64,000 nucleotides of DNA from NCBI GenBank assembly GCA_946557785.1, contig CAMNTH010000001.1, forward strand, positions 124,001 to 188,000, given 5' to 3'. Below the pieces are notes generated by a model, which did not search any database, was not told the DNA's origin, and was given only the letters and a program-made list of their open reading frames with translations. The translations under genes were made by a program, and so were the position numbers. How positions within the stretch are numbered: the stretch's first letter is position 1; each line of letters begins with the position of its first letter. Shown one piece after another: positions 58,456 through 59,507 of this stretch. The DNA is from an uncultured Blautia sp. (GTDB taxonomy: Bacteria > Bacillota > Clostridia > Lachnospirales > Lachnospiraceae).

Positions 58456-58484
58456 TTGACAAAGTTCCGGAAAAGTGCTATATT
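58456..58484 (+). promoter_or_regulatory. Promoter of the riboswitch operon
   Basis: TTGACA (58456-58461), 17-base spacer, TATATT (58479-58484). Transcription would start only a few bases before the aptamer. Confidence 0.75.
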
Positions 58485-58493
58485 TTTTTCAAG

Positions 58494-58627
58494 CAAATGA
58501 AAGGGAGTAGCTGAACACTCAGAAATGAGTGGGTTTGAAACCGTCACCCGATGCCGAGAGGCATCCGTATCAAATGAGATGGCAAGACTTTTATTGTGGC
58601 AGACGTCATGATAGGAGTCTTTTTTTA
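58494..58627 (+). ncRNA. yybP-ykoY (manganese) riboswitch with terminator
   Basis: The aptamer region has the family marks AAAGGGAGTAGC at the 5' side, an ACCGTCA loop and GGCAAGACTTTT at the 3' side. Stem P1 pairs CAAATGAAAG with CTTTTATTG with one bulge. The 3' strand of P1 also forms the left arm of a 15-base terminator (58584-58598 with 58607-58621, loop GCAGACGT) followed by eight Ts; the two are exclusive. Stabilising P1 by Mn2+ would therefore turn the downstream genes on. Call is by remembered consensus, not a covariance model. Confidence 0.78.
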
Positions 58628-58697
58628 TATCAAATGAAATTGCTCCATATATGGTGAGCTGCCGCATAGACTTGCAGAAGAAAGGGAGGATATTATC

Positions 58698-59129
58698 ATG
58701 AGTAATGAATTAGTAAGAAGAGAGATTCAGGAAGCAGTTATGGCCGGGGAGAGGGCGCTTACAAGCCTGCGCCTGGCAAAAGAAAAACTGGACAGCGCAA
58801 GAAACTGGGGAATCATTGATCTGTTTGGAGGAGGCTTTATTACAGATGTGATTAAACACTCTAAATTAGGTGATGCATCGTCTTATGTGGAGAATGCAAA
58901 AAGGGATTTGCTGATTTTCCAGACAGAATTAAGAGATGTGCAGGGGATCAGGGATATTAAAATTGAAGTAGGAGGCTTCCTTTCATTTGCGGACTTTTTC
59001 TTTGATGGGCTTGTTGCAGATTATCTGGTGCAGTCAAAGATTTCGGAAGCGAGACAGCAGGTTGACGATGCAATTTATCGTGTAGAGGGACTGCTCAAGC
59101 AACTGAAAAATGCTAATGGCTATGACTAA
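58698..59129 (+). CDS. Small protein of unknown function under the riboswitch
   Basis: A 143-residue protein, no signal peptide or clear membrane span. Helix-rich with heptad-like ends: residues ~5-35 (REIQEAVMAGERALTSLRLA) and ~120-140 (VDDAIYRVEGLLKQLK). The centre, NWGIIDLFGGGFITDVIKHS, then KLGDASSYVENAKRDL, looks like a conserved signature but I cannot name it. First gene after the riboswitch, preceded by GAAAGGGAGGATATTATC. A role in manganese or metal stress is inferred only from that control. Confidence 0.8.
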   Translation: MSNELVRREIQEAVMAGERALTSLRLAKEKLDSARNWGIIDLFGGGFITDVIKHSKLGDASSYVENAKRDLLIFQTELRDVQGIRDIKIEVGGFLSFADFFFDGLVADYLVQSKISEARQQVDDAIYRVEGLLKQLKNANGYD

Positions 59130-59147
59130 AGGATTGGAGGAATGATG

Positions 59148-59507
59148 ATGGGATGTTTAGGTAATTTATTGTGGTTCATTTTCGGAGGAGCGTTAAGCGG
59201 ATTAAGCTGGTGTATGGCAGGGTGCCTCTGGTGTATAACAGTGATTGGAATCCCTGTTGGAATGCAGTGCTTTAAATTTGCAGCATTAAGCTTTTTTCCT
59301 TTTGGGAAAGAGGTCCGCTATGGGGGCGGTGCCGGTTCCCTGCTGTTAAATATTATTTGGCTGCTGGTTTCCGGTGTTCCCCTTGCCCTTGAACATGCTG
59401 CCTGGGGAATTGTTTTGTGTGTGACAGTGGTTGGAATCCCATTTGGGCTGCAGCAGTTTAAGCTGGCAAAACTGGCCTTGATGCCATTTGGATCAGAAGT
59501 AATCTAA
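59148..59507 (+). CDS. YccF-domain membrane protein
   Basis: A 119-residue protein with two copies of the YccF repeat: CLWCITVIGIPVGMQCFKFA, LSFFPFGKEV and VLCVTVVGIPFGLQQFKLAK, LALMPFGSEV, each after hydrophobic stretches that should span the membrane. Function of the family is unknown. ATG 59148 is seven bases from GGAGG; ATGs at 59142 and 59145 are too near. Eighteen bases after the unknown gene, so both are under the riboswitch. Confidence 0.88.
   Translation: MGCLGNLLWFIFGGALSGLSWCMAGCLWCITVIGIPVGMQCFKFAALSFFPFGKEVRYGGGAGSLLLNIIWLLVSGVPLALEHAAWGIVLCVTVVGIPFGLQQFKLAKLALMPFGSEVI

Follow-up and report, generated by a model that had tools for sequence, protein, structure and literature searches.

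The window examined here, a stretch of 64,000 nucleotides from a 3.17-Mb genome (G000), carries between positions 58456 and 59507 of its forward strand a promoter, a structured leader and two genes, all in the same orientation. The promoter is of the sigma-70 type (58456-58484) and, as the preliminary description had it, reads as a consensus, with TTGACA at 58456-58461, a 17-nt spacer and TATATT at 58479-58484; under a permissive pattern allowing at most one mismatch per hexamer, a promoter-like pair also lies upstream at 32 of the 35 related loci that bear the element described below. Between this promoter and the first open reading frame lies the leader (58490-58626), which contains a yybP-ykoY-type aptamer (58490-58599 being the stretch used in our models) and an intrinsic terminator (58584-58626). 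The first gene (58698-59129) encodes a 143-residue protein, a predicted four-helix bundle, and the second (59142-59507) a YccF-family membrane protein of 121 residues.

The 143-residue protein reached the cut-off of no Pfam or NCBIfam family, and we call it DUF143 for the purposes of this analysis only. Its neighbor belongs to PF03733 (E 4.7e-38, 130 bits against a threshold of 27), a named family without an assigned function, so that the earlier characterization of the pair as an unfamiliar protein and a YccF protein, neither resembling an exporter, holds. The closest copy of the 143-residue gene among the best 80 of 396 relatives is 89% identical and is found in a genome of the same genus. 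Within 420 nt upstream of the gene, AGGGAGTAG is present at 32 of these 80 loci, and a covariance model (R1) finds the element at 35, a fraction that applies to close relatives because the best 80 of the 396 were used; no element was found at the remaining 45 of the 80, a few of whose contigs end too soon. A yccF gene follows DUF143 within 700 nt at 23 of the 35 loci with the element versus 6 of the 45 without it (best 80 of 396), Fisher tests on these loci having counted related loci as independent. At one of the loci (L042) the element precedes a flotillin gene (identified by Pfam), with DUF143 and yccF further down. At several loci of other families (L022, L023, L024 and L027-L031), DUF143 forms the C-terminal part of a coiled-coil-looking protein of 288-319 residues that likewise has no named family.

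The aptamer can be described as a series of helices whose pairing is conserved. The switch helix P1.1 joins 58493-58503 to 58588-58597 with one bulged base, and leads to the internal loop L1 (GGAGUA at 58504-58509 on the 5' side, AAGA at 58584-58587 on the 3' side), the columns of which are invariant in an alignment (A1) of 33 of the 35 aptamers, L075 and L091 having been omitted for their long inserts. P1.2 (58510-58513 with 58580-58583) and P3.1 (58533-58543 with 58566-58575) are drawn from pair counts and from RNAalifold, the hairpin P2 (58516-58531) shows both-side changes in 5 of its 6 pairs, and the metal-binding loop L3 (58544-58549) is followed by the hairpin P3.2 (58550-58565), which has a GAGA loop and is drawn from pair counts in A1. 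Overall, 93.8% of pair cells in A1 are standard and 16 of 34 pairs have changed on both sides; none of 500 shuffles, which do not control for relatedness, matched this pairing, and it drops to about 40% when partners are slid by one to three columns. P1.1 is paired in 88.5% of cells in A1 with zero double changes, and in a wider set (A4) double changes appear in 3 of its 8 pairs. Unaided, RNAalifold recovers P1.2, P2, P3.1 and P3.2 from A1, with the P1 region in another register; from A4 it predicts a fold that lacks P3.2. We see no P4 in the aptamer, A1 leaving about GAGAU between P3.1 and P1.2, so that the junction is three-way, as against the four-way junction that has been published.

Elements of this type stand before a variety of genes. 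R1 matches are present in 89 of 299 genomes of the bacterial family to which the window belongs (E<=0.01, strict filters), and we sorted 113 loci, namely 112 of 125 R1 matches together with the MntP-linked L113 (13 matches fell outside the sort), by the next gene, with gene groups assigned by Pfam on one to three representatives each: P-type ATPase at 33 loci, DUF143/YccF at 28, SPFH at 16, Na/Ca exchanger at 11, OadB/CNNM at 10, and other genes at 15. Mn exporters had been named beforehand as the usual targets; the range seen here is wider, extending to SPFH, DUF143/YccF, OadB/CNNM and exchanger genes. The SPFH genes are flotillin or HflK/HflC-like (for example at L119, L120, L130, L152, L154, L157 and L170), and OAD_beta, the beta subunit of the Na+-pumping decarboxylase, lies behind the element at L177, L188, L189, L197, L204, L212, L247, L250 and L254. 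On one contig, a Mn-type element precedes mntP (L053:1073-1176) about 2.6 kb upstream of a DUF143-linked element, placing the two types side by side.

Does this RNA belong to the yybP-ykoY class? It shares with the Mn2+ riboswitches of that class (RF00080; L. lactis and X. oryzae, PMC6754395; E. coli alx) the L1 letters GGGAGUAG ... (A/G)AGAC, found at 58503-58510 and 58584-58588 and invariant in A1 (GGGAGUA and AGAC are also invariant in A4), as well as the order P1.1, P1.2, P2, P3.1, an asymmetric L3 on the 5' side and P3.2, an A at the third position of L3, and a switch helix that overlaps a terminator. It differs from them in its downstream genes, which are not exporters, in the lack of P4 and in the absence of a match to the Rfam model. 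We do not count P4 and the four-way junction as defining, because MntP-linked copies (L113, L115 and L053) also seem, by eye, to have a three-way junction without P4.

The covariance check proposed in the preliminary description failed: RF00080 gave no match in the window even at E<=10, its gathering score of 45 bits was not reached, and no other Rfam family reached its own gathering score there. The same model (Rfam 15) does not list E. coli alx (L230) at E<=1, scores E. coli mntP (L231) at 41.6 bits, below its cut-off, and gives the MntP-linked L113 and L115 28.1 and 21.4 bits; hence we do not treat its cut-off as defining, and its silence at the window says little. At E<=1 it likewise gave no match at the related loci L159, L160, L165, L171, L189, L119, L120 and L180, nor at L053, L033, L039, L111 and L088, and over 100 genomes of the window's family it gave five matches at E<=0.01, none above the cut-off, while among 14 control genomes three were positive and two above the cut-off. 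The Rfam Mn model thus failed to detect the majority of the related elements examined, and since it misses alx and such loci, we set aside its non-match as evidence against the class.

The match came instead from a second model, R2, built from elements before other genes: 43 of 59 eligible elements with the structure predicted afresh, linked to P-type ATPase (19), OadB/CNNM (7), exchanger (6), SPFH (4) and other genes (7), and including no DUF143/YccF-linked member. R2, whose members were originally picked up with R1 and whose calibration is rough, matches the window with 51.1 bits (E 8.1e-9) and all three MntP-linked elements given to it with 50.1, 34.8 and 33.9 bits (MntP being PF02659 by Pfam). 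Together with the covariation in A1, this bears out the claim of a yybP-ykoY-like aptamer; of the broader claim, a Mn-type switch before two genes, the aptamer class and both genes stand and the RF00080 match does not. E. coli alx and mntP are missed by both R1 (E<=1) and R2 (E<=10), so that the tie to experimentally proven elements consists of the conserved letters and the MntP-linked relatives; alx, an annotated Mn2+ exporter gene, has the same CG-L3-P3.2-CG layout, with UCAUUAC as its L3.

An RNA of a different riboswitch class with a convergent likeness to yybP-ykoY would account for the zero Rfam match, and the OadB and Na/Ca exchanger genes found downstream also suit sodium biology, oxaloacetate decarboxylase genes being among those that occur behind Na+ riboswitches (PMC9337991). 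We regard such convergence as highly improbable, however, as the Na+ (DUF1646) motif is described as two extended helices, P1 and P2 (PMC9337991), in contrast to the three-way junction with P3 in the window; L1, P1.2, P2, the P3 order and L3 are common to several gene classes, and a model without the window's own gene family matches the window significantly and MntP-linked copies as well. Judged by its sequence, the RNA in the window is a divergent form of the Mn (yybP-ykoY) riboswitch, lacking P4 and having a short L3.

The window also departs from the solved structures in the length of L3. In these, L3 is 7 nt long (UCAAUUC in L. lactis, ACAUACU in X. oryzae), and its third base, an invariable adenosine, contacts Mn2+ through N7, alongside five phosphates (PMC6754395). 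In the window, L3 is the 6-nt UCACCC, with an adenosine at 58546 in the position equivalent to A41 of L. lactis and A48 of X. oryzae (correspondence from PMC6754395). Of the 28 DUF143/YccF-linked elements, 22 have a 6-nt and 6 a 7-nt L3, and 26 carry A at the Mn-contacting position. By comparison, L3 is 7-8 nt in all 52 scored of the 54 elements linked to P-type ATPase, exchanger or OadB/CNNM genes and 6 nt in none (the scored P-type ATPase-linked copies numbering 31 of 33); a 6-nt L3 occurs in 3 of the 16 SPFH-linked elements, and the other 15 elements comprise five with 6 nt, nine with 7 nt and one unscored. The script that read L3 misread the letters of L156 and left L113, L175 and L217 unscored. 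In two DUF143-linked elements (L148:1501-1630 and L149:1501-1610) L3 is UCUUCUU, with U replacing the Mn-contacting A; the corresponding substitutions are reported to remove the Mn-stabilized docked state (A48U; PMC6754395) and the effect of Mn on pausing (A41U; PMC11087558). The 6-nt L3 of DUF143/YccF-linked elements appears to be new.

These differences raise the possibility that the RNA family is the same and its specificity has changed, such that a 6-nt L3 accepts a different ion, or Mn2+ at a shifted affinity, in keeping with a role in membrane stress. Besides the contrast of 22 of 28 with 0 of 52 and the loss of the adenosine in L148 and L149, no exporter gene has been assigned behind any 6-nt copy among the 113 loci (L142 being without an assignment). 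We nevertheless find a change of specificity unlikely: the adenosine is retained in 26 of 28 elements, transporter-linked loops themselves range from 7 to 8 nt, and L3 length varies inside a single gene family. On a tree of DUF143 proteins (53 rows, 50 of them different, 47 with a 6-nt and 6 with a 7-nt L3; 34 of the 35 model-found loci, without L042, and 19 of 22 sorted loci, without L124, L131 and L132), L3 length changes five times, four of these changes being forced by starred branches in a bootstrap that had not settled and with very long branches for L138 and L111, and it clusters no more strongly than in shuffles (89 of 500 were as low). That L3 can change in length without a change of gene argues for one unchanged ligand.

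Downstream of the aptamer, the intrinsic terminator consists of a 17-pair hairpin (58584-58621; -19.0 kcal/mol on its own) followed by a T run, and its 5' arm (58584-58600) contains the whole 3' strand of P1.1 (58588-58597). The overlap between terminator and P1 that had been described is thus real, while the number of pairs is 17 rather than 15. A terminator-like arm and T run lie 3' of the aptamer at 32 of the 35 loci. The computed energy of the leader is -45.2 kcal/mol when folded freely, which gives the terminator fold, versus -30.2 kcal/mol with the aptamer forced, suggesting that the terminator wins without ligand and hence that the element is an ON switch. The far greater stability of the terminator fold would also suit a conserved leader that is constitutive or protein-responsive rather than ion-responsive. 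Such a leader seems extremely unlikely to us, given that the loops contain invariant letters for which pairing does not account and that the terminator-like arm with its T run recurs 3' of the aptamer at so many loci.

We think it likely that the locus is a Mn2+ ON switch of the yybP-ykoY family driving a membrane-stress module. Without ligand, the strand 58588-58597 would join the terminator hairpin and transcription would end near 58626; a metal, most likely Mn2+, bound between L1 and L3 would dock the aptamer so that P1.1 retains this strand, allowing transcription to proceed into the genes for the helical-bundle protein and YccF. Because L3 lacks one nucleotide relative to the two solved structures and an RF00080 match is absent, Mn2+ sensing is put forward here as a prediction. 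The proposed direction resembles that of L. lactis, where Mn2+ docking stabilizes P1.1 and prevents the terminator (PMC11087558); a review calls Mn riboswitches OFF switches (PMC11477304), contrary to that antitermination.

In its own genome, the RNA precedes not only the DUF143-yccF pair but also a flotillin gene (C7), an HflK/HflC-like pair (C3) and, at C1:74939, a Na/Ca exchanger assigned by its likeness to other exchangers. Before a P-type ATPase-like gene at C21:2836-2948 (L235; 25 bits, E 0.13), only the 3' half of the element is present, comprising the end of P3.2, the P1.1 3' strand and the terminator, with the 5' half replaced, by eye, by the end of a metG-like gene, which could reflect a deletion or an assembly fault. 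The mntP gene of this genome is preceded by another gene, with no such element in front. A search of the class with R1 found 28 of 291 genomes positive (E<=0.001, strict filters), with no strong DUF143-type element elsewhere in these 291 genomes, the 27 other genomes among the 28 scoring 30-50 bits. Of 19 loci inspected from this search, two lie in the window's family (one HflK/C-like, one exchanger) and 17 outside it (eight exchangers, three P-type ATPases, three OadB and three without assignment); since none of these 17 showed an SPFH, DUF143 or YccF gene downstream of the RNA, such links have so far been observed only within the family of the window.

The presence of membrane-scaffold genes and of the helical-bundle protein/YccF pair in a Mn riboswitch regulon appears to be new. 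We found no literature linking the RNA to YccF or HflC, in a search whose scope did not extend to the gene tables of Dambach 2015, Price 2015 and Martin 2019; YccF with riboswitch returned a single paper, on cold stress in Listeria, yybP-ykoY with flotillin returned only work on TerC, and two RNA discovery papers, surveying 26 and 50 genomes, contained none of the terms looked for in their main texts. Psp (phage-shock) modules with PspC and SPFH partners have reportedly been described. PspC (PF04024) lies near DUF143 at three of the best 80 of 396 loci (L048, L075 and L055), downstream of both the element and DUF143 in L048 and L075, whereas no PspA-like protein was identified and DUF143 itself has no family match.

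Known Mn systems also provide parallels. Mn2+ riboswitches precede P-type ATPases in L. lactis and C. difficile (CD2503) (PMC11477304), as does the same RNA type, with its longer L3 in scored copies, in our sort. In B. subtilis, YqgP together with FtsH protects against Mn2+ (PMC7231995), and FtsH, FloT and FloA co-purify with TerC proteins, which serve to load exported enzymes with Mn (PMC10550928); both systems tie Mn excess or metalation to membrane proteostasis or flotillins through physical or genetic links, as these sources describe them, whereas here the flotillin and HflK/C-like genes themselves lie behind the RNA. These links make a Mn-responsive membrane-quality module a coherent reading, and the metal-stress module suggested in the preliminary description is in keeping with the genes that this RNA type precedes. 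The DUF143/YccF pair may support the membrane when manganese is in excess: the two proteins would most likely protect or remodel it, acting alongside the SPFH scaffolds (flotillin and HflK/HflC-like) whose genes follow RNAs of this type in the window's own genome. It is doubtful, in our estimation, that the element is instead an offshoot of the Mn riboswitch with a reshaped pocket (the 6-nt L3, and A to U in two genomes) that senses another ion or range and is dedicated to a regulon for membrane integrity made up of YccF, flotillin, HflK/C, PspC and the DUF143 bundle.

The natural 6-, 7- and 8-nt L3 loops and the A-to-U variants offer direct material on metal selectivity by RNA. If the reading as a Mn2+ ON switch is true, the regulation of YccF and the DUF143 family would hint at what they do, and the Mn riboswitch regulon would reach beyond ion pumps to proteins of membrane scaffolding and stress (SPFH, YccF and PspC).
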